DNA of 64,000 nt from the NCBI RefSeq assembly GCF_023015695.1, contig NZ_JALKAS010000001.1:186001-250000 (forward strand), in the 5' to 3' direction. Under the pieces are notes generated by a model. It ran no database searches and was not told the origin of the DNA. It saw nothing but the letters and a program-made list of their open reading frames with translations. This DNA is from Jannaschia sp. S6380. GTDB lineage: Bacteria; Pseudomonadota; Alphaproteobacteria; Rhodobacterales; Rhodobacteraceae. Shown piece by piece: positions 38,777 to 62,496 of the stretch; the first letter of the stretch is position 1; each line of letters opens with the position of its first letter. The position numbers were made by a program, and so were the translations under genes.

Positions 38777-38807
38777 CGGCTCGGGCCTTCCAGCGCGGAA
38801 AGGTCAA
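38777..38807 (-). promoter_or_regulatory. CueR-type box before L,D-transpeptidase (38728)
   Basis: Minus strand: TTGACC (38807-38802), a 19-nt spacer TTTCCGCGCTGGAAGGCCC, then GAGCCG as a poor -10. The core TTCC-GCGCT-GGAA is a near-perfect dyad. Confidence 0.7.
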
Positions 38808-38893
38808 GCGCCATCGCCGCCTCGGCGCAGGTTCGCCGACATGGCGCCGGCGGCCTTGCGCTCCGTCCGGGGCGACGGTCCGACGACCGGGGA

Positions 38894-39622
38894 TCAGCGC
38901 GCCTCGCGCACCCTCGCGACCGCCTCCGCCAGCGTCCCGGCGTCGACGAGGCCGGGCAGCAGGGTCTCGCCCACCACGAAGGAAGGCGTGCCGGAGAAGC
39001 CGAGCAGATCGGCCAGCCGCATGGATTCCTCGATGTGGGCGTCGACCTCCGGCGCCTCCATGTCCGCCAGCAGCCGCTCGACGTCGAGCCCGACCTCCCC
39101 GGCGACGCGCAGCACCGAGGCGCGCTCGGCCCGGCCCGACAGGCCCATGAGGGCCCAGTGGAACGGCTCGTAGAGGCCCTGCTCGCGGGCGGCCAGCGCC
39201 GCGCGGGCGGCGAACACGCTGCCCTCGCCCAGGATCGGCCATTCGCGGCCGACGACGCGCACGCCGGGATCGTCCGACATGAGCTCGGACAGGACCGGCT
39301 TGGCGCGGCGGCAATAGGGGCAGTTGTAGTCGAAGAACTCGATCACCGCGACGTCGCCGGCCGGGTCGCCCAGCACGGGCGCGTCAGCGAGCAGCGCCTG
39401 CCGCTCCGCCGCGACCACGGAGCGGGCCGCGTCCATGCGGGCGGTCTCCTCCCGCTGTTGCAGGATGCCCACGGCCTCCATGACAATCTCGGGATTTTCC
39501 AGGATCGCCTCAAGGGCGAGACGCTTGACCTCCTCCGCCGTCATCTCGTCGGCGAGGGCGGGGGCGCCGGTGAGCGCGGCGGCCAGCAGGGCCGTGGCGA
39601 GACGGAGAGACGGTATGGGCAT
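38894..39622 (-). CDS. DsbA-family thiol:disulfide oxidoreductase (Com1/BdbD-like)
   Basis: A 242-residue secreted protein with signal peptide cut near ALA-DE (residue 24). An N-terminal helical segment (VKRLALEAILENPEIVMEAVGIL) is typical of Com1-like proteins. The active site is FFDYNCPYCRRAKP with Cys101 and Cys104, and the cis-Pro loop is GFSGTPSFVVGETLL. It likely oxidises or isomerises periplasmic thiols. It is preceded by a CueR-type box at 39690-39720, so it should be induced by copper. Confidence 0.9.
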   Translation of the reverse strand: MPIPSLRLATALLAAALTGAPALADEMTAEEVKRLALEAILENPEIVMEAVGILQQREETARMDAARSVVAAERQALLADAPVLGDPAGDVAVIEFFDYNCPYCRRAKPVLSELMSDDPGVRVVGREWPILGEGSVFAARAALAAREQGLYEPFHWALMGLSGRAERASVLRVAGEVGLDVERLLADMEAPEVDAHIEESMRLADLLGFSGTPSFVVGETLLPGLVDAGTLAEAVARVREAR

Positions 39623-39689
39623 CGTGGAGCCTCATGTCCATGGCAGGGCAGGGCGCGATCGCGCACCCGGCGCCCGGTCTACGAAGCGG

Positions 39690-39720
39690 ACCGTCGGACC
39701 CTCCCATGCGGGAAGGTCAA
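39690..39720 (-). promoter_or_regulatory. CueR-type box before dsbA-like gene (39622)
   Basis: Minus strand: TTGACC (39720-39715), a 19-nt spacer TTCCCGCATGGGAGGGTCC, then GACGGT. The spacer keeps the TTCC half, while the other half is degenerate (GGGAGG). Confidence 0.65.
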
Positions 39721-39725
39721 GCGCC

Positions 39726-42242
39726 TCATTCCGCCGGGGCGGCCATCGTGTCGCCGCGGGGCGCCGGCACCGGAACGGACGTCTCGCGCATCGGCGGCGA
39801 CCAGCGGCGCAGGCGCAGCGCGTTGCCGAGGACGAAGACCGAGGAGAGGGCCATCGCTCCGGCGGCGAAGATCGGCGAGAGCAGGAGGCCGAAGGCGGGA
39901 TAGAGCACGCCCGCCGCGACCGGCAGGAGCGCCGTATTGTAGGCGAAGGCCCAGAACAGGTTCTGCCGGATGTTGCGCAGCGTCGCCTTGGACAGCGCGA
40001 TGGCGTTCGGCACGCCCCTGAGCGAGCCCGACATCAGCACTACGTCGGCCGCTTCGATCGCCACGTCGGTGCCGGTGCCGATGGCGAGGCCCACATCCGC
40101 CTCGGCCAACGCGGGGGCGTCGTTGAGCCCGTCTCCCACGAAGGCCAGCCGGCCATGCGCGGCCCGGAGCGCCTTGACGGCCTCGACCTTACCATCGGGC
40201 AGGACCTCGGCGACGACCTCGTCGATCCCGAGGCGGCGCGCGATGGCGTCCGCCGTCCGGCGGTTGTCGCCGGTGATCATCGCGACCTTAAGGCCGAGAT
40301 CGTGCAGGGTGCGGATCGCCTCGGGGGTGGTCTCCTTGATCGGGTCGGCGACCGCGACGATGGCGGCGAGCTTGCCGCCCACGGCCGCGTAGAGCGGCGT
40401 CTTGCCCTCGTCGCCGAGCCGCTCGGCGGCCTCGGTGAAGACCGAGACGTCATATCCGAGGGAGACCATGTACCGATCGGCGCCGATCTCGATGGGCCTG
40501 CCGCCCACCATGGCCGAGACGCCCATGCCCGTCACGCTCTCGAAGCTCGCGACCTCGGGGAGATCGAGCCCCTCCGCCTCCGCGGCCGCGACGATGGCGC
40601 GCGCGATGGGATGCTCGGACTTCGCCTCGCCGGCGGCGACGCGGGCCAGCACGTCCGCCGGGTCGAAGCCGTCCGCGACGTCGAGATCCGTCATCCGCGG
40701 CTCGCCCTCGGTCAGCGTGCCGGTCTTGTCGAGCGCGACCACGCGGGCCTCGTTGAGAAGCTGAAGCGCTTCGCCCTTGCGGAAGAGGACGCCCATCTCT
40801 GCGCCGCGCCCGGTGCCCACCATGATCGAGGTCGGCGTGGCGAGCCCCATGGCGCAGGGGCAGGCGATGATGAGGACGGCCACCGCGTTGACGAGGCCGA
40901 AGGTCAGCGCCGGGTCGGGCCCGAAGAAGAACCACACGCCGAAGGTCAGGGCCGCGAGCGTGATGACGGCGGGGACGAAGTACATCGTCACCTTGTCCAC
41001 GAGGGCCTGGATCGGCAGCTTCCCGCCCTGCGCCTCCTCGACCATGCGGATGATTTGCGAGAGCATCGTGTCGCCGCCGACGGCCGTGGCGCGGAAGGAC
41101 AGTGCCCCGGTCTGGTTGACCGTCCCGCCGACGACGGTGGCGCCCGCTTCCTTGGACACCGGGATGGGCTCGCCGGTGATCATCGACTCGTCGACGTAGC
41201 TCCCGCCCTCGACCACCTCGCCGTCCACCGGCACGCGCTCACCCGGGCGCAGCTCGACCACGTCGCCTGGGGCCACGTCGGCCACGGCGATCTCGATGAT
41301 CTCGCCGTCCCGGCGCACGCGCGCCGTCTTGGCCTGGAGCCCGACGAGACGCTGGATCGCCTCCGAGGTGCGCCCCTTGGCGCGGGCTTCCAGCCAGCGG
41401 CCGACGAGGATCAGCGTGGCGATCACGGCGGCCGCCTCGAAGTAGACGTTCACCGTGCCCTCGGGCAGCAGCCCCGGGGCGAAGAGCGCCACGACCGAGA
41501 AGAGATATGCGGCGGACGTGCCCACGGCGACGAGGCTGTTCATGTCCGGCGCGCCCTTGAAGAGCGCCGGGAAGCCCTTGGCGTAGAACTGGAGACCGGG
41601 TCCGAAGAGGACGAGGGTGGTTAGAGCAAACTGGATCATCCAGTTGGCCTGCATCCCGATCGTGTTCATGACGAGGTCGTGGATGGCGGGGATCAGGTGG
41701 CTGCCCATCTCCAGGGCGAAGATCGGGAGCGTCAGCAGGCCGGCGATCAGGATGCTGCGACGCAGGCGACCGGCCTCCTCGTCGCGCTTCGCCGCGGCCG
41801 CGTCCCGCGATCCCTGGTCTCCCGCGACCTCGCGCGCCGCGTATCCGGCGGCCCCGGCGGCCGCGATCAGCGCCGCGGGATCGGCCGTCCCGCGCACCGT
41901 CGCACGCCCCGTGGCGAGGTTGACGTTCGCTTCCGCGACGCCGGGAACCGCTGCCAGTGCCCTTTCGACCCGGCCCGTACAGGACGCGCAGGACATGTCC
42001 TCCACCGCAAGCTCAACGGTCGTGGCGGGCACGGCGTAGCCCGCCGTCTCGACGGCGTGCACCAGCGCGGCCCGGTCGGCCGTGCCGCGCACCGACGCGC
42101 GCCCCGTGGCGAGGTTGACGCTGGCCTCCGCGACGCCCGGAACGGCCCGCAGAGTCCGCTCGACGCGGCCGACGCAGGACGCGCAGGACATGCCTTCGAC
42201 GGGTAAGGTCTGCGGGGGCGGGGCGGGGGCTGGCATCGGCAC
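39726..42242 (-). CDS. copA: Cu(I)-exporting P1B-type ATPase
   Basis: An 838-residue inner-membrane copper pump. Two N-terminal HMA domains each carry MSCASC (within the first 100 residues). Eight helices follow, with CPC in [15 protein letters not shown] near residue 462, DKTGT near 504 and [11 protein letters not shown] near the C-terminal third. The double CxxC domains and CPC are the Cu(I)/Ag(I) type. It has its own CueR-type promoter and is divergent from the small secreted protein and cueR genes. Confidence 0.96.
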
Positions 42243-42272
42243 GGGTCCTCGGGCGGGCTTCGGTCGGCCGCA

Positions 42273-42303
42273 GACATGGAGCTTCCCCCCGCTGGAAGGT
42301 CAA
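42273..42303 (-). promoter_or_regulatory. CueR-type promoter of copA
   Basis: Minus strand: TTGACC (42303-42298), a 19-nt spacer TTCCAGCGGGGGGAAGCTC, then CATGTC (42278-42273). It is close in form to classical CueR/HmrR promoters of copA genes and sits 31 bp before the copA start. Confidence 0.82.
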
Positions 42304-42824: not shown

Positions 42825-43226
42825 ATGAACATCGGAGAAGCCGCCGAGCGGACCGGCGTCCCCCCCAAGACGATCCGCTACTACGAGGATATCGGTCTCG
42901 TCAGGCCGACCCGGTCGGGAAACGGATACCGGGCCTTCTCGATGCGGGACGTCCACAAGCTGAACTTCCTGGGCCGGGCCCGGGCGCTCGGGTTCTCGAT
43001 CGAGGATTGCCGTGCGCTACTCGCGCTTTGGAACGACGAGACGCGGTCCAGCGCCGAGGTCAAGCGGCTCGCCCAAGACCACCTCACCGCGATCGAGGCT
43101 AAGATCACCGCCCTGCGGGAGATGCGCGACACGCTCACGGGACTGGTCGAGTCCTGCGCCGGCGACGACCGGCCGGACTGTCCAATCATCGAGACGCTGA
43201 GCGCGCGCGACGGTGCCCATGCCTGA
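42825..43226 (+). CDS. cueR: CueR/HmrR-type copper-responsive MerR regulator
   Basis: A 133-residue activator. The helix-turn-helix is NIGEAAERTGVPPKTIRYYEDIGL, and the C-terminal metal loop CAGDDRPDC gives the Cys-x7-Cys pair that binds one Cu(I), Ag(I) or Au(I) in CueR. GGAGG before the ATG at 42825 supports the start; the open frame continues upstream but without similarity. It overlaps the next CDF gene by 14 bases. It is the only CueR-type regulator in the window, and thirteen matching boxes occur between 38.7 and 62.5 kb. Confidence 0.92.
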   Translation: MNIGEAAERTGVPPKTIRYYEDIGLVRPTRSGNGYRAFSMRDVHKLNFLGRARALGFSIEDCRALLALWNDETRSSAEVKRLAQDHLTAIEAKITALREMRDTLTGLVESCAGDDRPDCPIIETLSARDGAHA

Positions 43227-44149: not shown

Positions 44150-44180
44150 GGAACCTTCCAGCGCTGGACCTACGTTCAAT
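44150..44180 (+). promoter_or_regulatory. CueR-type box before the DUF305 gene
   Basis: GGAACC (44150-44155), a 19-nt spacer TTCCAGCGCTGGACCTACG, then TTCAAT (44175-44180). The core TTCCAGCGCTGGA is a strong dyad. The -35 departs from TTGACC, while the -10 is better than in most copies. Confidence 0.65.
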
Positions 44181-44233: not shown

Positions 44234-45172
44234 ATGGCCGACGAGACGATGCATTCGGGACATTCGGGCGACGCTGAGGCGCAGGGCAAATCCGAGAGCG
44301 GCCCCAACTGGAAGATGTACGCCAACCTGCTGGCGATGGTGACCACGTCGACGGTGGTCATGTACTTCTTCATGTACTGGAACATCTACCGCTGGAGCGA
44401 CTTCTGGCTGTCGGAGACGCGGGCCTACATGTCGATGCTGATGTTCGGCACGATGCTGGCCATAATGCTCTCCTTCATGATCTTCATGTACAAGACGAAG
44501 TGGCTGAACCTGACGCTCTACGCGGCGTCCCTGCTGTTCTTCGCGGTCGGGCTGTGGCTCGTACGCTCGCAGATCACCGTGCAGGACGAGAGCTGGATGA
44601 AGTCCATGATCCCGCACCACTCCATCGCCATCATGGTCTCCGAGCGGGCGACGATCACGGACCCGCGCGCCCGCAAGCTCGCCGACGAGATCATCGCCGC
44701 GCAGGAGAAGGAGATCGCGGAGATGGACTACTTGATCCGGTATATCCGCGATAACGGCGAGGTGGGCGGCGAGTATCCGAACGGCGAGACCGCGGGGCCG
44801 ACTCCCGTGGCGGCTTCGGTCGCGGAGGCGCTGTCGCGCCCGGCGCTTGCGGGCGTGGACGTTGGTGGGATGACAGACGAGGAGGTCGCGCAGGTCGTGC
44901 CGGACGCGGCCTGCGCCTTCCGTTTCTCGGAAGGTCAACAAACCGTGGTCGCGGTGAACACGGCGGGAGAAGGCGTGATGAAGATCACCGGCCAACTCGT
45001 GCCCGTATCGCTCGTCGAGGGCGACCTGACGCGCAGCCCCGTGCTCGGAGCCGAGGGCGTGCGCCTCAGCGTCGTCCCGCAGGACGATGGCGCGGGCAGC
45101 GATCTGATCTTCGACCTCGAAACCGACCCTGCCCTTCGCGCCGGCTACGGCGGCGTCTACATCTGCACCTGA
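44234..45172 (+). CDS. DUF305 membrane protein with extra C-terminal domain
   Basis: A 312-residue protein. The N-terminus has three membrane helices (about residues 27-50, 64-84 and 90-110) rich in Met and aromatic residues. A DUF305 core follows with MIPHHSIAIM and SERATITDPRARKLADEIIAAQEKEI; DUF305 proteins are widespread in copper loci and bind metal through His/Met. After about residue 190 a separate domain (VVPDAACAFRFSEG...GYGGVYICT) has two cysteines and no family I recognise. It is followed after 11 bp by the Grx-MauE gene. Confidence 0.82.
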   Translation: MADETMHSGHSGDAEAQGKSESGPNWKMYANLLAMVTTSTVVMYFFMYWNIYRWSDFWLSETRAYMSMLMFGTMLAIMLSFMIFMYKTKWLNLTLYAASLLFFAVGLWLVRSQITVQDESWMKSMIPHHSIAIMVSERATITDPRARKLADEIIAAQEKEIAEMDYLIRYIRDNGEVGGEYPNGETAGPTPVAASVAEALSRPALAGVDVGGMTDEEVAQVVPDAACAFRFSEGQQTVVAVNTAGEGVMKITGQLVPVSLVEGDLTRSPVLGAEGVRLSVVPQDDGAGSDLIFDLETDPALRAGYGGVYICT

Positions 45173-45975: not shown

Positions 45976-46545
45976 TCAGCCAATGGTCAGCGTTCCGTCT
46001 TCTGCCAGCGCATAGGGAGGAATGTGCAGGTTCTCCGGCGCCGGGCCCCTTCGGATGCGACCTGCCGCGTCGTAGTGCGAGCCGTGGCAGGGGCAGAACC
46101 AGCCGCCAAAATCGCCGGCCCCGTCGCCAAGAGGAACGCAGCCCAGATGCGTGCACACGCCGATCTGCACCAGAAGAGCCTCCTGGTCCGGCACCACCCG
46201 GTTGGCATCGACGGCCGGCGCGTCGGCGGGCAGGTTGGCGTTGCGGGCGAATGGGTCGGGAAGATCGGCGACCTCCTCCGCCAGCGCCGCCTCGATCTCG
46301 GCCGGCGTCCTGTTGCGAATGAAGACCGGCTTGCCCTGCCACATGACCGTGAGTTGCGTCCCGGGCTCCACCCCCGAGATATCGACCTGAATCGACAGCA
46401 GTGCCCGCACGTCCGCGGACGGGTTCATCTGGTCCACGAGCGGCCACATGGCTGCCCCGGTCACCACCACGCCGGCACCGGCCGTCGCGTAGTAGAGGAA
46501 GTCCCGTCGTGTTCCTTCGGGGGCTTCGTCTGCTTTCGTATCCAT
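45976..46545 (-). CDS. petA: Rieske iron-sulfur protein (ubiquinol-cytochrome c reductase type)
   Basis: A 189-residue Rieske subunit with Tat-type leader ([13 protein letters not shown]) and one membrane helix. The [2Fe-2S] ligands are in CTHLGC (Cys131, His133, Cys136) and CPCHGSHYD (Cys151, Cys153, His154). [13 protein letters not shown] is the typical hinge. The cytochrome b and c1 genes are not here, so this is a stand-alone second copy, presumably a spare for the bc1 complex. The start at 46545 and the CueR-type box at 46598-46628 suggest copper induction. Confidence 0.93.
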
Positions 46546-46597: not shown

Positions 46598-46628
46598 CGC
46601 GAACCACCTTCCCACGGAGTAAGGTCAA
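46598..46628 (-). promoter_or_regulatory. CueR-type box before the Rieske gene
   Basis: Minus strand: TTGACC (46628-46623), a 19-nt spacer TTACTCCGTGGGAAGGTGG, then TTCGCG. One half-site (GGGAAGG) is good. It is nearly back to back with the box at 46654-46684. Confidence 0.65.
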
Positions 46629-46653: not shown

Positions 46654-46684
46654 CTTCCCTTCCAGCGCGGGACCTCGCGTAACC
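46654..46684 (+). promoter_or_regulatory. CueR-type box before the DUF1624 gene (46722)
   Basis: CTTCCC (46654-46659), a 19-nt spacer TTCCAGCGCGGGACCTCGC, then GTAACC. The TTCCAGCG half is perfect and the other half degenerate. Confidence 0.6.
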
Positions 46685-46721: not shown

Positions 46722-47474
46722 ATGGACGTCTCGCTCTCGCAGCCCTGCACCCCAAGCCGTCACGCACGCTACCCTACCGTGGATGTGCTGCGGGGCTGGG
46801 CCATCCTCGGGGTCGTGCTGTTCCACCTCGCCTGGGACCTCGCGTTCCTCGGCCTGATCCCCTCGCAATGGGCGGTGGAGCCCGCATGGATCGCCTTTGG
46901 CCGGACGGTCGCTGCGACGTTCATGGCGCTAGTGGGCGTCAGTCTCGCGCTGGCGGCGCGCGGCGGCCTGGACCCCGCCGCGTTCGGCGCGCGGCTGGTG
47001 AAGATCGCCGCCGCCGCCCTGGCGATCACGGTGGCGACGCGCCTCGCGATGCCGGGCGCCTGGGTCTATTTCGGCATCCTCCACGCCATCGTGGTAGCGA
47101 GCCTGATCGGGGCGGCGTTCCTGCGCGCGCCCTCCGTCGTCACGTTCCTGCTGGGCGGCGCGACCATCGCCTTCGGCCTGGCCTGGACGGACCCCGCCTT
47201 CGACGCCCGGACCGTCGCCTGGATCGGTTTCGCCGCCGGCCCCGCGCCCTCCGTCGACTTTGCGCCCGTCTTCCCGTGGGTCGGGTTCACCCTGATCGGC
47301 CTCGCCGCCACGCGCGCGGCGCTGCACCGGGGGTGGCTGGATCGGCTGCCGAGACCCGAGGGGCGCCTTGCACGTGGGCTGTCGCGGATCGGACGCCGGA
47401 CGCTCGCCATCTACCTGCTGCACCAGCCGGTCCTCCTGGCGATCCTCTATCCGGTCGCTTGGGTGGCGGGATGA
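46722..47474 (+). CDS. DUF1624 / HGSNAT-like membrane acyltransferase, copy 2
   Basis: A 250-residue polytopic protein, paralogous to the one at 19695-20486. Shared motifs include TVDVLRGWAILGVVLFHLAWDL near the start, FAPVFPWVGFTLIG, and RTLAIYLLHQPVLLAIL at the end. It lacks the long N-terminal extension of copy 1. It is expected to acylate an envelope glycan from the membrane; the substrate is unknown. The copies sit in two differently regulated units (CTACAG-type and CueR-type). Confidence 0.83.
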   Translation: MDVSLSQPCTPSRHARYPTVDVLRGWAILGVVLFHLAWDLAFLGLIPSQWAVEPAWIAFGRTVAATFMALVGVSLALAARGGLDPAAFGARLVKIAAAALAITVATRLAMPGAWVYFGILHAIVVASLIGAAFLRAPSVVTFLLGGATIAFGLAWTDPAFDARTVAWIGFAAGPAPSVDFAPVFPWVGFTLIGLAATRAALHRGWLDRLPRPEGRLARGLSRIGRRTLAIYLLHQPVLLAILYPVAWVAG

Positions 47475-47487: not shown

Positions 47488-48402
47488 TCAGGCGCGGGGC
47501 AGGTCCGGCCGCAATCGCTCGCCCCGAAAGGCCCGCAGGGCCAGCCAGAGCCCGGCCGCGATCATCGGCAGCGAGAGGATCTGCCCCATCGTCAGGCCGG
47601 CCTGCCCCAGTTGCAGCGCGTAGCCCAGCGGGTTGCCCGGCCCGGCGAACTGGGCGTCCGGCTGGCGCACCAGCTCGACCAGCGCGCGCGCCGTGCCGTA
47701 ACCCATGAGGAACACGCCCGTCAGAAGGCCGGGCCGCTGGAAGGCGCCGCGGCGCCAGGCCAGCCACAGCAGCACCGCGCCCAGAAGCACCCCCTCCAGC
47801 AGCGCCTCGTAGAGCTGCGAGGGGTGACGGGCGCACAGCCCGGCGACACCGGCGCAGTCCTGCGCGGCCGCGCCGGGGAAGATCACCGCCCAGGGTAGAT
47901 CGGTCGGACGGCCCCACAACTCGGCGTTCACGAAGTTGGCGAGCCGCCCGAGGAAGAGCCCGATCGGCGTCGCCAGCGCGAGAAGGTCGGCCAGCGGCAG
48001 CAGCGGCACGCGGTGGCGCAGGTGGAACAGGATCAGCGCGACCGCGACGCCCAGCATCCCGCCGTGGAAGGACATGCCCCCTTGCCAGACCATCAGGATC
48101 TCGGCCGGGTTGGCGAGGTAGTAGCCCGGCTGGTAGAACAGCACGAAACCGAGGCGTCCGCCCAAGATCACCCCGAGCACGATCCAGGTGACCAGATCCT
48201 CCAGTCGCGCGGGCGCGAGCGGCGGGCCGGCGGCCCCCCAGAGGCGCGGCGTCAGCACCGCCCGGCGGCACAGCCACCAGCCCAGCACGATGCCGGCGAT
48301 GTAGGCCATCGCGTACCAGCGCAGGGCGAAGGTAAAGGACCCGAGGTCGATCGAGAAGATGTCGGGCCCGATCTCGGGGAAGGGAAGGGCGAGCAGGGTC
48401 AT
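47488..48402 (-). CDS. lgt: Prolipoprotein diacylglyceryl transferase
   Basis: A 304-residue membrane enzyme that adds diacylglycerol to the lipobox Cys, the first step of lipoprotein maturation. [35 protein letters not shown] and [12 protein letters not shown] are all diagnostic. The start at 48402 is chosen for a normal N-terminus; the open frame continues far upstream antisense to ccmF. With lspA and lnt in this region, a full lipoprotein pathway is duplicated. A CueR-type box at 48461-48491 precedes it. Confidence 0.94.
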
Positions 48403-48460: not shown

Positions 48461-48491
48461 CCCCTGCGGGCCTGCTCCGCTGGAGGGTCAA
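48461..48491 (-). promoter_or_regulatory. CueR-type box before lgt
   Basis: Minus strand: TTGACC (48491-48486), a 19-nt spacer CTCCAGCGGAGCAGGCCCG, then CAGGGG. It is divergent from the ccmF box, with 47 bp between the two -35 elements. Confidence 0.65.
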
Positions 48492-48538: not shown

Positions 48539-48569
48539 TTGACCCTCCCCCGATGGAACCCCCGACCTG
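48539..48569 (+). promoter_or_regulatory. CueR-type box before ccmF
   Basis: TTGACC (48539-48544), a 19-nt spacer CTCCCCCGATGGAACCCCC, then GACCTG. The -35 is exact and the dyad is weak. It lies 28 bp before the ccmF start. Confidence 0.6.
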
Positions 48570-48597: not shown

Positions 48598-50592
48598 ATG
48601 ATACCCGAACTCGGCCATTTCGCCCTGATCCTGGCCCTGATGCTCGCGCTGGTGCAAAGCGTGCTTCCGATGATCGGCGCGCGGGCCGGGCGGGCGGACT
48701 GGATGGACAGCGCCCGGACGACCGCGGCGCTTCAGGTGGCGCTGCTCGCGCTGGCCTTCGCGGCGCTGATCCGGTCCTTCGTGATCAGCGACTTCACCGT
48801 CGTGAACGTCGTCGAGAACTCGCACTCGCTCAAGCCGATGCTCTTCAAGGTCGCCGGAAGCTGGGGCAGCCACGAGGGCTCGCTGCTGCTCTGGACGCTG
48901 ATCCTCGCCGTGTTCGGGGCGGGGGTCGCGCTGCTTGGCGGCAACATCCCGGCGGGGCTGAAGGCGCGCACGCTGTCGGTGCAGGCCTGGATCAGCGTGG
49001 GCTTCCTGACCTTCATGCTGTTCACCTCCAACCCGTTCGACCGCGTCTTCCCCGCGCCGCTGGACGGGCAGGACCTCAACCCGCTGCTGCAGGATGTCGG
49101 GTTGGCGCTGCACCCGCCGCTTCTGTACTTCGGCTATGTCGGCTTCTCGATCGTGTTCTCCTTCGCCGTCGCCGCGCTGATCGAGGGGCGGGTCGATCCG
49201 GCCTGGGCCCGTTGGGTCCGGCCCTGGACGCTCGCGGCCTGGATCAGCCTGACCGCCGGCATCGCGCTCGGCTCCTGGTGGGCCTATTACGAGCTGGGCT
49301 GGGGCGGCTGGTGGTTCTGGGACCCGGTCGAGAACGTCAGCTTCATGCCTTGGCTGCTGGGCACGGCCCTGCTGCATTCGGCGATCGTCACCGAGAAGCG
49401 CGACGCCTTCAAGAGCTGGACGATCCTGCTGGCCATCCTGACCTTCTCGCTGTCGCTCCTGGGCACGTTCATCGTGCGCTCGGGCCTGCTGACCTCGGTG
49501 CATGCCTTCGCCGTGGACCCCGAACGCGGGCTCTACATCCTGGGGCTGCTGGGCGTCACGGTCGTCGGCTCGCTGACGCTCTATGCCTGGCGCGCCCCGC
49601 AGCTCGAGCCGGGGGGCCTGTTCCGCCCCGTCAGCCGCGAGGCGGGGCTGCTCATCAACAACCTGCTGCTGGCGACGGCGACCGGGACGGTTCTTGTGGG
49701 CACGCTCTACCCGCTCTTCGTCGAGGCGCTGACCGGCGAGAAGCTGACGGTCGGCCCGCCCTTCTTCAACGCCGTCTTCATCCCGGTGATGCTGCCCTTG
49801 GTGGTCGTCATGGGCGTGGGCCCGCTTTTGTCGTGGAAGCGCGCGGACCTGCCCGGCGTCGCGCAGCGGCTGCGGCTGGCGCTTCTCGTGACGGCCGCCG
49901 TCGCCGGGATCGTCTGGTACCTGCAGACTGGAGGCCCGCTGCTGGCCGTGCTGTCCATCGCGATCGCGGCCTGGCTCTTCGCGGCCAGCCTGCGGGAATG
50001 GGCGCTGCGCATCCGGCTGGGCGACGTCCCTCTGCGCGAGGCGGCGCGCCGGGCGCGGGGCCTGCCGCGCGCGGCCCATGGCATGACGCTGGCCCATCTG
50101 GGGGTGGCGGCCCTGATCCTGGGCTTCGTCGGCTCGTCGGCCTGGAAGGAAGAGCAGGTCCTCTTCGCCCGCGCCGGCACGGTGGTGGAGATCGCGGGCT
50201 TCGAGGTCGTGTTCGAGGGCGTCGAGCAGGTGCGTGGCCCCAACTACGTGGCCCAGCAGGCGCAGCTGCGCGTCCTGAAGGGGGGCGAGGAGATCGCCCG
50301 GCTGCGCCCGGAGCGCCGGTCCTACCCGGTCGCCGGGACCACGACGACCGAATCGGCCATCCGCTCCACCCTCGTGGGCGATCTCTACACCACGGTCGGC
50401 GAGCCCGCCGCCGGGCCGCAGACGGGGCAGTGGACGCTGCGCATCCTCTACGAGCCGCTTGTGAACTGGATTTGGATCGGGTCGGCCATGCTGATCCTCG
50501 GCGGCCTTCTGTCCATGTCCGACCGGCGGCTGCGCGTCGGCGCCCCCCGGCGCGCCGCGCGGCCCGTGCCGGCCGCCCAACCCGCGGAGTAG
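48598..50592 (+). CDS. ccmF: Cytochrome c haem lyase subunit CcmF
   Basis: A 664-residue membrane protein that, with CcmH and CcmI, attaches haem to apocytochrome c. It has about 15 helices. The WWD motif is [18 protein letters not shown], with flanking conserved His (HPPLLYFGY, and VHAFAVDP later). I chose the ATG at 48598 ([11 protein letters not shown]), the normal family start; MGTTT at 48583 is an alternative. It heads ccmF-ccmG-ccmH-ccmI, the second half of a Ccm system, away from the ccmABCDG locus at 5-8 kb. Confidence 0.94.
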
Positions 50593-50596
50593 CGCC

Positions 50597-51624: not shown

Positions 51625-52772
51625 CCCTGTGGATTTTTCTCGCTCTGCTTGCGCTCGCAAGCGGCGCGCTCCTGTTCTTTGGGCTGGGCGGGCGCCCGGT
51701 CGCCCTGACGCGCCGCGACGGCAGCGTCGCGATCCTGAACGACCAGCTCGCCGAGGTGGCGGCCGACCGCGACCGGGGCCTGATCTCCGGCGCGGAGGCG
51801 GAGGCCGCGGAGATCGAGATCAAGCGCCGCCTCCTTTCGGTGGCGCGTCGGACGGAGGCGGCGCCGGAGCGCCGGGGCTCGGGCCGCGCGACCGGCGCGC
51901 TGCTGGCCGTCGCCGTGCCCGCGGCGGCGGTGCTTCTCTACCTCCAGATCGGTGCCCCCGAGGTCGCGGGTCGACCGTCCGAGGAGGTCGCCGCGCAGCG
52001 GGCCGAGGCGGCGCAGGTCGCCGCCCTGACCGCCGAGCTGAAGGCGCGGCTGGAAGGCGACCCGGAGGGCGGCCCGACCGAGGGCTGGGTGCTGCTGGGC
52101 CAGACCTACATGACCATGGGCCGCTACGAGGACGCGGCCGGCGCCTTCGCCAGCGTGGCGGGTCGCGAGGAGGCGGATTCGTCTATTCAGTCGCGCTATG
52201 CCGAGGCGTTGATCGCCGCCGAGAGCGGGGTCGTCACGCCCAAGGCGCGCCGCGTCATCGACAGGGCCATCGCCCTCGACCCCGCGAACCCGGCGGCCGT
52301 GTTCTTCCTGTCGCAGGCCCGCGAGCAGGAAGGCGCGCTCGTCGCGGCCCGCGCGCTGCTGGTCGAGCGGCTGGACTCGGCGGACGGGTTCCAGCCCTGG
52401 ATGGAGCTGTTCATCGCCTCGGCCGACCGGCTGGGCGAGCAGACGGGCGACGCGCCGCTCGACCTCGCGCGCTACGCGCCGATGCTCGGCGGCGGGCGGG
52501 GGCCCGGCGCGGCCGATGTCGCCGCGGCGCAGGACATGGCCCCGGCGGACCGGATGGCCTTCATCGAATCGATGGTCGAAGGGCTGGCCGCGCGGCTGGA
52601 GGACGAGCCGGGCGACGTCGAGGGCTGGATGCGCCTGATCCGGGCCTACGACGTGCTGGGCCGGACGCAGGACGCGGCGCAGGCCCGCGCCGGTGCCCGT
52701 GCGGCGGCCGAGGCGCTGCCCGGGGACGATCCGCGACGGGACGCGGTGCTGCGCGCGCTGGACGGGGGCTGA
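51621..52772 (+). CDS. ccmI: Cytochrome c assembly protein CcmI/CycH
   Basis: A 383-residue protein with two N-terminal membrane helices (residues 3-22 and about 92-110) flanking a cytoplasmic leucine-rich loop, then a periplasmic TPR domain (WVLLGQTYMTMGRYEDAAGAFASV and similar repeats). CcmI chaperones apocytochrome c to CcmFH. The start at 52772-1151 (ATG at 51621) overlaps the ccmH stop. It ends the ccmFGHI run, convergent with the dsbD-like gene eight bp away. Confidence 0.9.
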   Translation: MTLWIFLALLALASGALLFFGLGGRPVALTRRDGSVAILNDQLAEVAADRDRGLISGAEAEAAEIEIKRRLLSVARRTEAAPERRGSGRATGALLAVAVPAAAVLLYLQIGAPEVAGRPSEEVAAQRAEAAQVAALTAELKARLEGDPEGGPTEGWVLLGQTYMTMGRYEDAAGAFASVAGREEADSSIQSRYAEALIAAESGVVTPKARRVIDRAIALDPANPAAVFFLSQAREQEGALVAARALLVERLDSADGFQPWMELFIASADRLGEQTGDAPLDLARYAPMLGGGRGPGAADVAAAQDMAPADRMAFIESMVEGLAARLEDEPGDVEGWMRLIRAYDVLGRTQDAAQARAGARAAAEALPGDDPRRDAVLRALDGG

Positions 52773-52773: not shown

Positions 52774-52788
52774 GCGGGGGCTACTCCC
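52774..52788. terminator. Small hairpin between convergent ccmI and dsbD-like genes
   Basis: GGGGG-CTACT-CCCCC lies between the two convergent stops. It is short and lacks a T-run, so it is a weak bidirectional terminator at best. Confidence 0.3.
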
Positions 52789-55689: not shown

Positions 55690-55720
55690 CCGGTGCGGCC
55701 TTCCAGCGCCGCAAGGTCCA
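55690..55720 (-). promoter_or_regulatory. CueR-type box before the ScsC/ScsB-like genes
   Basis: Minus strand: TGGACC (55720-55715), a 19-nt spacer TTGCGGCGCTGGAAGGCCG, then CACCGG. The GCGCTGGAAGG half is good, and it lies 25 bp before the start. Confidence 0.62.
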
Positions 55721-55843: not shown

Positions 55844-56377
55844 ATGCAGATCACGAAACCCGCTCGGATGCACGGCGACGGCGACCGGATGCGCCGCACG
55901 TCCCTACATCTCGGATATGCCGCGGCCGCCGGATCGGCGGCGTTGCTGGGAGCGGCTTATCTTTACCAGCTGGCGGGCTATGCCCCCTGCACCATGTGCA
56001 TCTGGCAGCGTTACCCGCATGGCGTGGCCATCGCGCTCGGGCTCGCGCTACTCGTGCTCGGGCGAAGCCAAGTCGTCCTAGCGCTCGGCGCGCTGGCGGC
56101 GGGCACGACGGCCGCGCTCGGCCTGTATCACACCGGCGTGGAGCGCGACTGGTGGGACGGGCCGTCCGCCTGCACGGGCGGGGCCTCGGAGCTGTCGGGC
56201 ATGACCGGCGCGGACCTGCTGTCCTTCGACACGGCCGAGACGCTGGTCCTGTGCGACGAGGTGGTCTGGGAGTTCCTGTCGCTCTCGATGGCCAGCTGGA
56301 ACGCCATCCTCAGCGCGCTCCTGGCCGGGGTCTGGATCGCGGCGCTCGTGCTGTCGCGGCGCGCGGGCCGCGCGTAG
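55844..56377 (+). CDS. DsbB-family disulfide bond formation protein, second type
   Basis: A 177-residue, four-helix membrane protein. The first redox pair is Cys49/Cys52 in APCTMCIWQRYPH, and the second is Cys110 (SACTGG) and Cys137 (LVLCDEV) in the long periplasmic loop, as in alphaproteobacterial DsbB. It should reoxidise one of the DsbA-like proteins, perhaps the divergent one at 54889. The ATG at 55844 is used; MHGDG at 55868 is an alternative. The gene differs from the shorter BdbC-like copy at 24912. Confidence 0.87.
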   Translation: MQITKPARMHGDGDRMRRTSLHLGYAAAAGSAALLGAAYLYQLAGYAPCTMCIWQRYPHGVAIALGLALLVLGRSQVVLALGALAAGTTAALGLYHTGVERDWWDGPSACTGGASELSGMTGADLLSFDTAETLVLCDEVVWEFLSLSMASWNAILSALLAGVWIAALVLSRRAGRA

Positions 56378-56416: not shown

Positions 56417-56447
56417 CTTGCCTTCCGGCGCTGGAGGTCGGCCACAC
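56417..56447 (+). promoter_or_regulatory. CueR-type box before L,D-transpeptidase (56485)
   Basis: CTTGCC (56417-56422), a 19-nt spacer TTCCGGCGCTGGAGGTCGG, then CCACAC. The dyad TTCC-GGCGC-TGGA is mostly kept. Confidence 0.62.
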
Positions 56448-56484: not shown

Positions 56485-57177
56485 ATGCTGACACGCCGAC
56501 ACTTCATCTCGTCGACCGCCGCGCTGTTCTCCGCGCCGATCGCCGCACCCGCCCTCGCGCAGACGCTCCCCGAGGGCGTCGAGGGCCGCGCGCCGCGATC
56601 CGACCGGAGCATGTGGGACGTCTGGGACGCGCAGGTGACGCCGCCGGGCTACGACCCCGCGACGTCCAACCCGTGGGGCCTGGAGCCGCGCTTCCTGCCC
56701 CGGCTCGTCGAGGCGAAGCCCGGCCTCCTGCCCGGCGACGTCCATGTCGACGCCGTGGCCCGCTACCTCTACCACATCCGCCCCGGCGGTCTGGCGATGC
56801 GATACGGCGTCGCCATCGCGCGGGGCGACCTCTACGAGCCCGGCATCTACACGATCGCGCGAAAGGCGCGCTGGCCGATCTGGACGCCCACGCGGAACAT
56901 GATCCGACGCGACCCCGAGCTCTACGCGCAGTTCGAGGGCGGTGTGGATGGCGGGCCACTCAACCCGCTCGGCTCTCGCGCGCTCTATCTCTACGAGGGC
57001 GGGCGGGACACCTACCTGCGCATCCACGGCTCGCCCGAGGCCCGCTCGATCGGCGGGCGGGCGAGCTCCGGCTGCGTGCGCATGGTCATGGCGCACATCA
57101 TCGGCCTCTACGATCTGGTCGAGACTGGGTCCACGGCGTTCCTCTATCCGCCCGAGGATGCCTTGGGCGCGGTCTAA
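56485..57177 (+). CDS. L,D-transpeptidase (YkuD domain), copy 2
   Basis: A 230-residue exported enzyme with Tat-like leader (TRRHFISSTAALF). The site is RIHGSPEARSIGGRASSGCVRM with catalytic Cys and Arg intact. It is closely similar along its whole length to the protein at 28914-29585. It is convergent with a small lipoprotein gene, exactly as that copy is, so the pair has been duplicated as a module in the opposite orientation. Here a CueR-type box precedes it. It should make 3-3 cross-links in the cell wall. Confidence 0.9.
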   Translation: MLTRRHFISSTAALFSAPIAAPALAQTLPEGVEGRAPRSDRSMWDVWDAQVTPPGYDPATSNPWGLEPRFLPRLVEAKPGLLPGDVHVDAVARYLYHIRPGGLAMRYGVAIARGDLYEPGIYTIARKARWPIWTPTRNMIRRDPELYAQFEGGVDGGPLNPLGSRALYLYEGGRDTYLRIHGSPEARSIGGRASSGCVRMVMAHIIGLYDLVETGSTAFLYPPEDALGAV

Positions 57178-57710: not shown

Positions 57711-57858
57711 ACTTGACCTCCGAGGTGGCGAATTCCGAGTGCCGATCGGAGATCCGGCGGTGATCTTCGTATCTCAGCTCGAAGCCTCCGGCAGAGGAAG
57801 GGCAACGCCTTTCTTGCCGGATTTCCCAACGTTCGACCCCGAAAATGTGTGATGGCGC

Positions 57859-58341
57859 TCAACCGCCGGCCGCCTGCGTCCGGGCCGCTTGCGCGGCGCG
57901 TTCGCGGTCGGGCCAGGTGGACTTGATGTATTTTAGCACGTCGCGGATCTCGGCGTCGGTCAGGGTGCCCTCGAAGCCGGGCATCCCGCTGTCGAAGCCC
58001 TCGACCCCCTGCGCGGCCAGCGCGGCCGCCCCGCCCAGCTTGGTGTAGGCGAAGAGCGTGGCGTCGTCGTGGTGCCAGGTGTGGCCGGTCGCGTCGTGGG
58101 GCGGGGCGGGCAGGCGGCCGTCAGGGCCGGGGCTGCGCCAGTCGGGCTGGCCTTCGAGGTTTGCGCCGTGGCAGGACGCGCAGTAATCGCCGTAGAGAGC
58201 CTCGCCCCGGGCCAGGTCCACCGGCGCGGCGATGGCGGGCATGGCGCCGGGGGCGGCCGGGTCCGCGCGGGAGCCGAGCGCCCACCACGCGCCGCCCGCC
58301 GCCAGCGCGGCGCCGGCCAAGGCGAGCGCCGCTACCCTCAC
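57859..58341 (-). CDS. Class I cytochrome c, anchored
   Basis: A 160-residue protein with an N-terminal membrane anchor (residues 3-22) and one haem site CASCH (Cys54, Cys57, His58). A distal Met is likely in GMPGFEGTLTDAEIRDVLKYIKS, a typical class I tail. I chose a GTG start at 58341 because it overlaps the multicopper oxidase stop as GTGA; the ATG at 58398 would lie inside that gene and adds unrelated residues. It probably exchanges electrons with the oxidase encoded upstream. Confidence 0.85.
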   Translation of the reverse strand: MRVAALALAGAALAAGGAWWALGSRADPAAPGAMPAIAAPVDLARGEALYGDYCASCHGANLEGQPDWRSPGPDGRLPAPPHDATGHTWHHDDATLFAYTKLGGAAALAAQGVEGFDSGMPGFEGTLTDAEIRDVLKYIKSTWPDRERAAQAARTQAAGG

Positions 58342-59738
58342 GCGGCGACCCGCAGGAAGGCCATCATGCCCGAGGCGGCGTGGCTGAGCATGTGGCAATG
58401 CAGCATCCAGTCACCCGGCGCGGCCGCACTGAACGCGACCTCCACCGTTTCGCCGCCCGGCACCAGCGTGGTGTCGCGCAGGTCGCCCAAGGCGCCGTCC
58501 GCGACCTCATGGAAGTGCATCCCGTGCAGGTGCATCGCGTGCGGCCAGTTCGAGCGGTTCTCGATCGTCAAGCGCACGGTCTCGCCCGCGGCCAGCTCGG
58601 CCAGCGGCGCCATCGCATCCTCGGCCGTCCAGTCGGCGCGGCCGTTGAACGCCCAGTAGAAGCCCGCGCCCGCCATCTCGCGGAAGCCCGCCCGGCGGCC
58701 GCCCATCAGCGCGCCGTCCATGCGGCCCATCGCGCCGCCCTCCATCACCAGCCGCAGGGGCCGGGCATCCGCCAGCGCGCCGAGGGCGGGCACCGGGTTG
58801 GGCGGCAGGGGCGCGGGTGCGGGGCGCGTCGCGGCGGTGCCGCCCGCGCGGACGGGGAAGGCCATCTGCACCACCGGCTCGCGCTCCATGTGGATCAGCA
58901 GGGCCTCCTCGCCCGCCCCGGCGGTGACGTCCGCGATCACGTCGGCGCGCTGCGCTGGGGCCAGGACGAGGCGGTCCAGGGGGCGCGGCGCGGGCAGCGG
59001 CATGCCGTCCAGCGCCACGACCCAGCCGGTCATGCCCTGCAGCGCCAGATCGAAGATGCGGGCGTTGGCGGCGTTGATGAGCCGCAGGCGCAGCCGGTCG
59101 CCCCGACGCACGGAGTGGGTGGCCTCGACCTGGCCGTTGGTGGTGACGACGTTGCCGAAGCGGCCGCCATGGCTGGCGTCGTGGGGGGCGGCGAAGTCCA
59201 GCGCCTGCGTGCCGTCCTCGCGCAGCCGCCAGTCGCCCAGCAGGGCCACGACCTCGTCGTCCACGTCCGGGCGTGCGCCCTCCGGCTCCTCCACGATCAG
59301 CGGGGCGTGCAGGCCGCGGCCCACCTGCGCGGCCGAGGCGCGGTGCGCGTGGTACCAGTAGGTGCCCGCGTCAGGCAGGTCGAAGGCGTAGTCGAAGCTC
59401 TCGCCGGGCGCGACGGGCGCCTGCGTCACGCCGGACACGCCGTCCATGCCGTTGGGCAGGCGGATCCCATGCCAGTGGATCGAGGTCGGCTCGGGCAGGG
59501 CGTTGAGGAGCCGCCGCTCCAGCCGCTCGCCCTGCACCATGCGGATGCCCGCGCCGGGGGCGGCGCCGTCATAGCCCCAGACCGGCGTGGCCGGGTAGGG
59601 CGCGGGCAGCAGCTGCGCGGTGCCGGGCCGGGCCTCGATCACGATCGGGTCCATGGCGGCGCGCGCGAGCCGGGGCAGGGCCGGGAGGGCCGCCGAGGCG
59701 GCGAGGAGGGCGCCGAAGCGGCGGCGGGAAAGGGTCAT
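58338..59738 (-). CDS. Multicopper oxidase (CueO/CopA-like)
   Basis: A 466-residue Tat-exported oxidase (LSRRRFGALLAASAALPAL). All copper-binding motifs are present: HWHG, HAHR, HLHGMHFH and HCHMLSHAASGM, giving the T1 and T2/T3 sites. A short Met/Gly segment (MEGGAMGRMDGALMGGR) lies before the third motif. It likely oxidises Cu(I) to less toxic Cu(II) in the periplasm. It lies between two cytochrome c genes, which may donate or accept electrons. Confidence 0.93.
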   Translation of the reverse strand: MTLSRRRFGALLAASAALPALPRLARAAMDPIVIEARPGTAQLLPAPYPATPVWGYDGAAPGAGIRMVQGERLERRLLNALPEPTSIHWHGIRLPNGMDGVSGVTQAPVAPGESFDYAFDLPDAGTYWYHAHRASAAQVGRGLHAPLIVEEPEGARPDVDDEVVALLGDWRLREDGTQALDFAAPHDASHGGRFGNVVTTNGQVEATHSVRRGDRLRLRLINAANARIFDLALQGMTGWVVALDGMPLPAPRPLDRLVLAPAQRADVIADVTAGAGEEALLIHMEREPVVQMAFPVRAGGTAATRPAPAPLPPNPVPALGALADARPLRLVMEGGAMGRMDGALMGGRRAGFREMAGAGFYWAFNGRADWTAEDAMAPLAELAAGETVRLTIENRSNWPHAMHLHGMHFHEVADGALGDLRDTTLVPGGETVEVAFSAAAPGDWMLHCHMLSHAASGMMAFLRVAA

Positions 59739-59781
59739 CTGTCGCGTCCTGTGATAATGGACCGGGGCGGAGGTTCCCGCG

Positions 59782-60240
59782 CTACCCGATCCCGTTCTCG
59801 CGCTGCAGCGCGCGGATGTAGGCGGTGATCGCCTTGACGTCGGCGCGGGTCAGCCCCTCGATGGCGGGCATGTTCCCGAACTGCCAGTGATGCGCCTGCA
59901 CGCCCATCTGCGTGGCGCGCCAGAACGACTCGTCTCCGTGATGGCCGGGCTCGTAGGTGATGTGCACCAGCGGCGGCGCGACCCCGTTCCGGCCGGCCGC
60001 GGCCGCTCCGTGGCAGGCGGCGCAGACGCCCTCGTAGGCGCGCTTGCCGATCGTCTCCAACTCGCCCAGCGTCTCCGGCAGGGCGACCTGCACGATGGGG
60101 GCGCCTTCGGGAATGCCGGAGGTGTCGGGCGGCACCATCGAATGGCCGCCAGCCGGCGGGTTGGCCACGTTCCAGACGAGCGCGCCGGCCCCGGCCAAGA
60201 GCACGGCGCCGACGGTCAGGGTCAGGCCGTCGACCTTCAT
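59782..60240 (-). CDS. Cytochrome c, anchored, upstream of the oxidase
   Basis: A 152-residue protein with an N-terminal anchor (residues 6-24) and haem motif CAACH (Cys73, Cys76, His77). The probable axial Met is in FGNMPAIEGLTRADVKAITAYIRALQ. The region before the haem carries a Pro/Gly-rich linker. Its start overlaps the DUF411 stop, and the oxidase gene follows after 43 bp. Confidence 0.88.
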   Translation of the reverse strand: MKVDGLTLTVGAVLLAGAGALVWNVANPPAGGHSMVPPDTSGIPEGAPIVQVALPETLGELETIGKRAYEGVCAACHGAAAAGRNGVAPPLVHITYEPGHHGDESFWRATQMGVQAHHWQFGNMPAIEGLTRADVKAITAYIRALQRENGIG

Positions 60241-60719
60241 CGCGTGCCGGCCGTCTCGAAGATCGTGCCGTCGCCGGCCGCGCCGCCGAAGGCGAACATG
60301 TCGTACTCCGCCGCCGGGTCGTAGCCCATGCCGGGCGAGCCCATCGGCATGCCGGGCGCGGCGAGCCCCGCGACATCCGGCGCCTCGGTGAGAAGGCGGT
60401 CCATCGCCTCGAAGGAGACGTGCCCCTCAATGACGTAGGCGCGCCCGTCCGGGGCGGTCAGCGTGGCCGTGTGGCAGGACCAGAGGTCGTCGGGCACGCC
60501 CGCATCGAGCTTGGCCTGCGTAATGTCGTCCACGTCCCGGGTCTCGACCGCGTAGCCCGCCGCGCGCGCCATCTCGGCCCAGCCGGTGCAGCAGCCGCAG
60601 GTCGGACTCTTGACGACGGAAAGGGTGGGCGGGGCTGCGGCCAGAAGCGGCGCGGTTCCAGCGACGAGGGCGGCGGCCCCGGTGGCGGCGATCAGGGCGC
60701 GGCGGGTCAGGGTGGTCAT
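60237..60719 (-). CDS. DUF411 metal-binding protein
   Basis: A 160-residue exported protein with a leader (TLTRRALIAATGAAALVAG). The DUF411 motif is VVKSPTCGCCTGW (Cys41, Cys43, Cys44), then WSCHTATL and YVIEGHVSFEAMDRLL. DUF411 proteins are common in copper and silver loci and probably bind Cu(I). The C-terminus is Met/Gly-rich (GMPMGSPGMGYDP). The start at 60719 follows the copZ stop by 16 bp. Confidence 0.88.
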   Translation of the reverse strand: MTTLTRRALIAATGAAALVAGTAPLLAAAPPTLSVVKSPTCGCCTGWAEMARAAGYAVETRDVDDITQAKLDAGVPDDLWSCHTATLTAPDGRAYVIEGHVSFEAMDRLLTEAPDVAGLAAPGMPMGSPGMGYDPAAEYDMFAFGGAAGDGTIFETAGTR

Positions 60720-60735
60720 CGGGAACTCCTCAGGG

Positions 60736-60930
60736 TCAGGCGGGCGCGACGTCGTAGCCGGCATCCTTGAGCGCGGCGCGCATGGCGTCCGCGTCGCGCG
60801 CGGTGTCGATCTCGACCATGCGGTCCTCGGGCGCGAAGGTCACGCGCGCGGCCGGGTCGGCTGCTGCGACGGCCTTCTCGATGCTGGTACGGCAATGGCC
60901 GCAGGACATGTCGGGGACGTGGAATCTCAT
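60736..60930 (-). CDS. copZ: CopZ-like copper chaperone (HMA domain)
   Basis: A 64-residue single HMA domain with MSCGHC (Cys10, Cys13). It should carry Cu(I) in the cytoplasm to CopA and CueR. The ATG at 60930 gives a standard HMA start; a longer reading runs into the promoter. It is the first gene of copZ-DUF411-cytochrome-oxidase-cytochrome, behind a CueR-type promoter. Confidence 0.9.
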   Translation of the reverse strand: MRFHVPDMSCGHCRTSIEKAVAAADPAARVTFAPEDRMVEIDTARDADAMRAALKDAGYDVAPA

Positions 60931-60953
60931 CGGTCTTCTCCTGGCTTGGTGGG

Positions 60954-60984
60954 CAGGTGGGGGTTTCCCCCGCTGGAAGGTCAA
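60954..60984 (-). promoter_or_regulatory. CueR-type promoter of the copZ operon
   Basis: Minus strand: TTGACC (60984-60979), a 19-nt spacer TTCCAGCGGGGGAAACCCC, then CACCTG. It lies 24 bp before the copZ start, and its spacer is nearly the same as that of copA. Confidence 0.75.
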
Positions 60985-61181
60985 GGGCTGCCACGGGCTG
61001 CGTCATCCTGCCGCCGGGGCGGTCCCGACGGGCCGCGTCGGGGGCAGCGCTTGACCGGCCGCCGGCGCGCTGTCTACCCCGGGGCGATGACGCCCTTCGC
61101 AGATCCACGACCATCGGGCACGGGCGCCGTTGGCAGGGGCCGCGGCGCCCCCGGATGGCTCCGGCCGAACGGGTCGCGACC

Positions 61182-62051: not shown

Positions 62052-62056
62052 CCTCG

Positions 62057-62356
62057 TCAGGCCAGCTCGGACGCCGTAGCCGGGCGCCTGGCCACGCCGG
62101 GGACGTCGGTGGCGGCCTCGCGCACGGCCGGGGCCTCCGCCTCGTCCGCCTTGCCGTGGCAAGACTTGCCCAGAACCAGGAACATCACGCCGTGCAGCGC
62201 GAGGCAGATCAGCAGCGGCGCGAAGGCGGTCGCCGCGCTCGCGATCCCGGTGATCGTGCCGCCCATCAGGAAGAAGGCGGCGACGGGCGCCAGCATCACC
62301 ACGCAGCACGCCATCATCCCGAGGTTCATCAGGTTCAGGCCGGTCAGTCGTTTCAT
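62057..62356 (-). CDS. Small two-helix membrane protein, Met/Cys-bearing
   Basis: A 99-residue protein with two helices (about residues 13-32 and 40-62). The first starts NLMNLGMMACCVVMLAP, with a Cys pair among methionines, and the second is followed by LGKSCHGKADEAE. I do not recognise the family with certainty. The Cys/Met/His pattern and the CueR-type box at 62391-62421 suggest copper handling; this is inference. Confidence 0.7.
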   Translation of the reverse strand: MKRLTGLNLMNLGMMACCVVMLAPVAAFFLMGGTITGIASAATAFAPLLICLALHGVMFLVLGKSCHGKADEAEAPAVREAATDVPGVARRPATASELA

Positions 62357-62390
62357 CGCTTCGTCCTTCTGGCGGTCGTTGATTCGCGAT

Positions 62391-62421
62391 CTTGCACCAT
62401 GATCCCGCGCGGGAAGGTCAA
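62391..62421 (-). promoter_or_regulatory. CueR-type box before the gene at 62356
   Basis: Minus strand: TTGACC (62421-62416), a 19-nt spacer TTCCCGCGCGGGATCATGG, then TGCAAG. The core TCCCGCGCGGGA is a strong palindrome. Confidence 0.7.
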
Positions 62422-62465
62422 GCAGCTCAGGTCGGCGGAGTCACGCGGCCGTGATCGACGGGGGT

Positions 62466-62496
62466 TTGACCTTCCAGCGCCGGAAGGCTCCAGCGC
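62466..62496 (+). promoter_or_regulatory. CueR-type box, best dyad in the window
   Basis: TTGACC (62466-62471), a 19-nt spacer TTCCAGCGCCGGAAGGCTC, then CAGCGC. Together with the preceding bases it forms CCTTCC-AGCGCC-GGAAGG, perfect 6-bp arms. It faces the secreted His-rich protein and the cytochrome genes at 62587-64000. The -10 is poor. Confidence 0.75.

Follow-up and report, generated by a model that had tools for sequence, protein, structure and literature searches.

The 64,000-nt window analyzed here (positions 186,001 to 250,000 of contig NZ_JALKAS010000001.1 from Jannaschia sp. S6380, Rhodobacteraceae) contains part of a 33-kb copper island located at C1:224.8–257.6 kb of the 3.5-Mb genome. 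In sum, the island carries copA, cueR, ccmFGHI, lgt, a Rieske protein gene, Dsb/Scs genes, L,D-transpeptidase (Ldt) genes, copZ, a multicopper oxidase gene, and cytochrome genes. About 18 CueR-type promoter boxes were counted in it: 13 described in a previous sequence-only reading, one likely extra that also falls in the window, and four that lie after the window end. Judged from its sequence, this region is probably a mobile island for copper resistance, with a single CueR-type regulon serving both copper export and the supply of spare envelope enzymes. The boxes fall into two classes, with half-sites separated by seven (N7) or six (N6) bases.

CueR-type boxes in the copper island

All 13 boxes of the sequence-only reading were present where it had placed them, and each lay on the correct strand, 51–118 bp upstream of its gene when start codons were mended. 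The three features that it had attributed to every box held in part. TTGACC was found as the −35 element in nine boxes and TGGACC in one, but the boxes at 44150, 46654, and 56417 had GGAACC, CTTCCC, and CTTGCC, respectively. The A of the −10 element lay exactly 19 nt behind the −35 element in eight boxes but not in the other five. The right half was weak at 44150, 46654, and 48461.

The CueR half-sites ACCTTCC/GGAAGGT, which agree with published signals (PMC1526738), were scanned with a score out of 14 over the window plus the next 15 kb (79 kb), using 50 first-order Markov random sequences as the control. At a spacing of 6, 24 sites scored at least 11, compared with a random mean of 1.9 (maximum 5); seven scored at least 12, compared with a random mean of 0.14, and three scored at least 13, a threshold unscored in the random set. 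At a spacing of 7, the numbers of sites with scores of at least 11, 12, and 13 were 7, 2, and 2, respectively. Among the spacings of 3–11 that were tried, only 6 and 7 stood out, and each of the others gave at most one site with a score of at least 12.

Genome-wide, all six matches of the pattern TTGACCTTCC-N6-GGAAGG with no more than one mismatch and 10 of the 16 with no more than two lay within C1:224.8–257.6 kb. At up to three mismatches, the total of 55 matches was no more than the 72 of the reversed-pattern control; a genome-wide excess of boxes was therefore rejected, and the enrichment is local. Because the matches are concentrated in this region while their total is not above the control, the boxes belong to one island. 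The sequence-only reading had proposed a weight-matrix scan of the genome as a check. The matrix was a sequence model built from 26 N6 boxes, all from other genomes, and it was applied to 150 of 3452 first-look candidates; the top seven matches were all inside the island. The eighth preceded DUF305 in a second copper island; lower ranks were a mixture of sites in the island and elsewhere. The four model matches past the window end precede genes for a PQQ-type dehydrogenase, an EF-hand protein, a VTT protein, and a second copper ATPase, which were named by eye or homology.

Much of the gene set was also found on plasmids of Jannaschia, Mameliella, Martelella, Ruegeria, Phaeobacter, Antarctobacter, and Sagittula, and the Jannaschia plasmid showed 83% DNA identity across 90% of 12.3 kb. 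In the comparison of ten orthologous promoters with Jannaschia, 166 of 201 bases (83%) were kept in the boxes and 872 of 1499 (58%) in the flanks, the latter count being based on rough gene starts and including a few coding bases (Fisher p = 3e-12). The likely extra box, which has a Jannaschia counterpart, led us to a small open reading frame (ORF) behind it (Table 1).

It is extremely improbable that the boxes are chance matches or a functionless repeated palindrome. Although the sequence is GC-rich and one strong match lies inside a coding sequence, this explanation is contradicted by the random control, the clustering of the boxes, their distance to gene starts, the −10 A, their conservation, and the small-gene prediction.

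Two operator spacings and their regulator

For 12 of the 13 boxes, the best reading of the half-site spacing was 6, and only copA (42273) had 7; the boxes at 38777 and 56417 can also be read with a spacing of 5. Among the 13, the 21-bp TTCC-N7-GGAA dyad of the classical CueR operator was found at copA alone. The sequence-only reading had treated all boxes as a single type, but all except the copA box are best read as a 20-bp, even-centered variant of the 21-bp CueR operator. The published CueR/HmrR operator is odd-centered and lies in promoters with 19-bp spacing (PMC1526738), and a later study fixed the CueR motif at 21 bp with a constant distance to the −35 element (PMC5045206).

In the island loci, position 26 (the −10 A), which had not been used in box picking, was A in 31 of 38 N6 boxes and 17 of 17 N7 boxes near gene starts, with identical boxes removed and near-identical relatives kept. 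Since this A stands at the same place in both classes, the promoter spacing of 19 is common to both. The copper ATPases in these loci had N7 boxes in 11 of 11 cases, and CopZ had five N6 and five N7 boxes. The N6 targets were CcmF (6/6), Ldt1 (6/6), DUF2933 (11/11), DsbA types (four), ScsB (one), Rieske (two), and three others; one further Rieske box, tied between the spacings, was filed as N7.

A similar search was performed with TTGACCYTCC-N4-9-GGAAG in 150 genomes of the family. The 148 matches listed, which include the six of the S6380 genome itself (reversed control, 13), had spacings of 4, 5, 6, 7, 8, and 9 in 1, 2, 33, 105, 2, and 5 cases, respectively. Of 31 boxes in 30 other fetched loci of the family, one had a spacing of 5. 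Copper ATPase genes were found after 14 of the 22 N7 boxes and after none of the eight N6 boxes, which were followed by cytochromes c (five) and CopZ (three). In a sample of the phylum outside the family (186 genomes), 35 of 45 matches had a spacing of 7 and one had a spacing of 6. An N6 box was present too on a plasmid of Martelella, a member of another order. On these counts, the N6 class looks like a feature of this lineage.

The gene at 42825–43226 had been called CueR in the sequence-only reading, and its product matched TIGR02044 with 164.2 bits, above the curated cut-off of 147.4. Among solved structures, CueR 1q05 was the best match (109.8 bits; CadR, 58.2). In the alignment with 1q05, the CxGDDxxDCPI loop retained both of its cysteines and the SAxVK helix its serine. 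The genome contains eight MerR-family matches, one of which is a second CueR that is 71% identical to the island CueR and nearly alike in the DNA-binding part. The second copper island (C1:728–772 kb) contains CueR, CopA, CopZ, DsbA2, ScsB, and DUF305. Three N7 boxes there precede copA, copZ, and a third gene, and an N6-like site precedes DUF305. The sequence-only reading had assigned a wide copper regulon to one CueR. A wide regulon that includes a cueR gene is well supported by the clustering and conservation of the boxes and their recurrence on plasmids, but the word "one" is uncertain given the second CueR.

Because the half-sites and promoter geometry are shared with the N7 boxes, the island CueR would be expected to bind the N6 boxes. 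The island genes are predicted to be induced by copper. An arrangement in which a different MerR-type regulator or the second CueR acts at the N6 boxes, leaving only the N7 boxes to the island CueR, appears improbable. It would account for the sharp split between N6 and N7 targets, and the eight MerR-family matches, with the second CueR among them, provide candidates. However, the half-sites are identical between the classes, CopZ occurs under either class, the DNA-binding parts of the two CueRs are nearly alike, and island plasmids with both classes show one annotated cueR in the record stretches covered. A MerR gene of Ruegeria intermedia was considered as a second N6 regulator and rejected, with an apparent mercury operon found around it.

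Table 1. Boxes and genes of the copper island in the window (positions of the window; aa, amino acids)
Feature	Position	Strand	Remarks
N6 box	38785..38804	-	upstream of L,D-transpeptidase Ldt1
Ldt1, L,D-transpeptidase (YkuD)	38171..38728	-	Pfam PF03734
N6 box	39698..39717	-	upstream of DsbA/ScsC-like gene
DsbA-like protein with ScsC N-terminal domain	38894..39622	-	PF01323, PF18312
N7 box, classical CueR type	42280..42300	-	upstream of copA
CopA copper P-type ATPase	39726..42242	-	from sequence; similar genes on plasmids carry the annotation heavy metal P-type ATPase
CueR	42825..43226	+	TIGR02044; best PDB sequence match 1q05
N6 box without TTGACC	44153..44172	+	upstream of DUF305 and MauE/glutaredoxin genes; kept in Jannaschia
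DUF305 protein	44234..45172	+	family search
MauE/glutaredoxin gene	45184-45954		after DUF305 gene
N6 box	46606..46625	-	upstream of Rieske gene
Second bc1-type Rieske protein	45976..46545	-	TIGR01416; 69% identical to C2 copy; start by eye
N6 box without TTGACC	46657..46676	+	upstream of HGSNAT_cat gene; 17/20 bases kept in Jannaschia
HGSNAT_cat membrane acyltransferase	46722..47474	+	PF07786
N6 box, weakest of the 13	48469..48488	-	upstream of lgt
Second Lgt, prolipoprotein diacylglyceryl transferase	47488..48402	-	TIGR00544; 56% identical to C1:1.65 Mb copy; start by eye
N6 box	48542..48561	+	upstream of ccmFGHI
Second ccmF-ccmG-ccmH-ccmI run	48598..52772	+	PF16327, PF03918 and others; start by eye
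N6 box	55698..55717	-	upstream of DsbA2-ScsB; 19/20 bases kept in Jannaschia
ScsB/DsbD-like gene and DsbA-like gene	52781-54892 and 54889-55665	-	family search; starts by eye
DsbB	55844..56377	+	PF02600; divergent from DsbA2-ScsB box region; start by eye
N6 box without TTGACC	56420..56439	+	upstream of Ldt2; 17/20 bases kept in Jannaschia
Ldt2, L,D-transpeptidase	56485..57177	+	PF03734; start by eye
Likely extra N6 box	57783..57805	-	absent from the sequence-only reading; Jannaschia box at corresponding place
Small lipoprotein-like ORF, 71 aa	57495..57710	-	behind 57783-57805 box; similar ORF in Jannaschia plasmid at corresponding place
N6 box	60962..60981	-	upstream of copZ run; 20/20 bases kept in Jannaschia
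copZ, DUF411, cytochrome c, multicopper oxidase, cytochrome c	57859..60930	-	CopZ PF00403; rest by sequence and annotated relatives
N6 box	62399..62418	-	upstream of DUF2933-like gene 62057-62356
N6 box, genome's best model match	62469..62488	+	upstream of small gene 62587-62904, then cytochrome c-like gene from about 62952

Spare copies and relatives of the island genes

Exact genome-wide copy counts were made for ccmF, lgt, and the bc1 Rieske gene, as distinct from the Dsb, Scs, and Ldt genes. Each of the three was found in exactly two copies, one in the island and one elsewhere, and the identities between the two copies were 53%, 56%, and 69% for CcmF, Lgt, and Rieske, respectively. The other Rieske gene adjoins an apparent cytochrome b gene, as judged by eye. 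No box above 12/16 was found in the fetched surroundings of the other three copies. Motifs such as the Rieske cysteines and the tryptophan-rich stretch of CcmF are retained. The island envelope enzymes may function as replacements. Homologs of HGSNAT_cat, Ldt2, DsbA, DsbB, and ScsB were present in other fetched stretches of the genome, some of them in the second copper island, and these genes were therefore not counted as spare housekeeping copies. A further L,D-transpeptidase gene at window positions 28483–29585, whose product is 67% identical to Ldt2, adjoins a homolog of the lipoprotein gene at 57193 and has no model match.

For the phylogenetic analysis of CcmF, 80 of at least 590 relatives were fetched, and 85 of the 90 proteins collected were kept; the five dropped for short or missing alignment included two from a copper context. 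The 13 copper-context proteins in the tree (of 15), together with two that have only an ScsB-type neighbor, formed one clade with a support of 100. The other, housekeeping CcmF of this genome was far from this clade and grouped with those of Paracoccus and other Rhodobacterales. The copper-island CcmF is a separate clade and is often plasmid-borne. The median number of cysteines was 1 in the copper clade (13 proteins) and 2 in the others (70 proteins), with a p value of 4e-4 that ignores kinship; copper hardening of CcmF through cysteine loss was a weak candidate only.

The simplest reading of this gene set is the resupply of functions poisoned by copper. Its main rival is that the extra Ccm, Lgt, and Dsb proteins form a kit for maturing cytochromes, lipoproteins, and oxidases encoded by the island itself in any new host, rather than replacing host enzymes that copper has poisoned; CueR regulation would be the same. 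In favor of this rival, several c-type cytochrome genes and lipoprotein-like genes lie beside these genes in the island, and several cytochrome c genes are present on the plasmids too. The host, however, already has Ccm and Lgt, and there is nothing on the island that the spare Rieske subunit and the two L,D-transpeptidases could mature. As an explanation in its own right, the kit is unlikely, although both may hold.

A search for a tRNA gene as an integration site found none in the window or in one further fetched stretch (L046). Upstream of the copper island, at window positions 15498–18096, a MerR-type gene is followed by apparent mercury-resistance genes, as named from their sequences. In the Antarctobacter plasmid stretch (L186, positions 1–5200), lspA and genes for disulfide protein B, SCO, and PCuAC lie near the copper set, which fits the envelope theme.

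Proposed mechanism and relation to known copper systems

In the proposed mechanism, Cu(I)-bound CueR would act at about 18 boxes by twisting promoters whose 19-bp spacing is over-long. The N7 boxes, as the classical operator, would drive the copper-exporting ATPases, and the N6 boxes, with half-sites one base closer and the −35/−10 distance unchanged, would drive the envelope genes. The N6 set would thereby supply fresh or spare copies of enzymes poisoned by copper, namely CcmFGHI, Lgt, L,D-transpeptidases, a Rieske subunit, and DsbA/ScsB, with DsbB as a possible further member, and would also bring CopZ, the multicopper oxidase, and cytochromes that handle copper. Copper is described as inhibiting L,D-transpeptidases and, at the Lgt step, the maturation of lipoproteins, and as disturbing disulfides (PMC6593411), and cytochrome c maturation (Ccm) is described as a copper target (PMC8456105). 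These poisoned functions match those of the island genes under the boxes. The Rieske protein may be a further copper target.

The island resembles classical CueR/HmrR regulons in having CueR, TTCC/GGAA half-sites, 19-bp spacing, and copA, copZ, and oxidase targets, but it differs in having about 18 boxes, 20-bp even-centered operators, and envelope-biogenesis targets. Multicopper oxidase, chaperones, and cytochromes c were predicted by Permina et al. (2006) to belong to CueR/HmrR regulons, as found here, whereas ccm, lgt, Rieske, and L,D-transpeptidase genes are absent from parts 1–2 of the five parts of that paper (PMC1526738). A CueR homologue of Rhodobacter sphaeroides, RSP_2889, was met by name in a reference list only. 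The island shares with the Scs proteins an ScsC-type N-terminal domain and a DsbD-like partner, but its Scs-like genes are located with Ccm, Lgt, and Ldt genes. The scs genes of Salmonella have been linked to copper regulation. No publication describing such a regulon was found by title or abstract in a search that left most subscription journals outside.

Several observations weigh against a wide regulon of this kind. The −35 element was not TTGACC-like in 3 of the 13 boxes, and the −10 A was missing in 5. The lgt box was not among the model matches, and the lgt and DsbA/ScsC boxes, the latter with 15 of 20 bases kept in Jannaschia, were conserved no better than many flank windows (44 and 25 of 111, respectively). 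A near-perfect N7 box at 44915–44935 lies antisense within the DUF305 coding sequence and is kept in Jannaschia; it was set aside as an operator, its conservation being probably protein-driven. The DsbA2/ScsB and Ldt1 homologs of the second copper island have no such boxes. The cytochromes had already been predicted in the CueR regulon in 2006 (PMC1526738), and the bc1 Rieske protein is never named as a copper target in the passages of the literature covered. Finally, no ccmF box scoring at least 13/16 was found in 9 of the 15 copper-context loci, and in Mameliella, Phaeobacter, Antarctobacter, and Sagittula, genes for a response regulator and a kinase lie just upstream of the boxless ccmF.

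The arrangement in these four annotated relatives is what would be expected if CopRS-type two-component systems mainly controlled copper stress and the CueR boxes, although real, were marginal outside copA and copZ. We consider this quite improbable. In the other six copper-context loci (the S6380 island, Jannaschia, two Ruegeria, Martelella, and Tropicimonas), a box lies before ccmF itself, even though a response-regulator/kinase pair is nearby in Martelella and Tropicimonas, and no such gene pair was seen by eye in the ORF list of the window at 38–63 kb, where no domain search was made.

We tentatively propose that Rhodobacterales evolved a second, even-centered class of CueR operator, with N7 for export and N6 for envelope repair, so that one sensor would run two programs, and that plasmids spread this "target replacement", in which resistance would come from restocking enzymes poisoned by copper. 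Scans restricted to the 21-bp motif would overlook the N6 class, and with two spacings in one regulon, nature offers a way to test the effect of half-site spacing on activation by MerR-type regulators. Accounts of copper resistance usually center on export or oxidation of copper; in this island the same sensor seems to restock envelope enzymes that publications name as targets of copper, and the list of copper toxicity targets thus becomes a testable genetic program.

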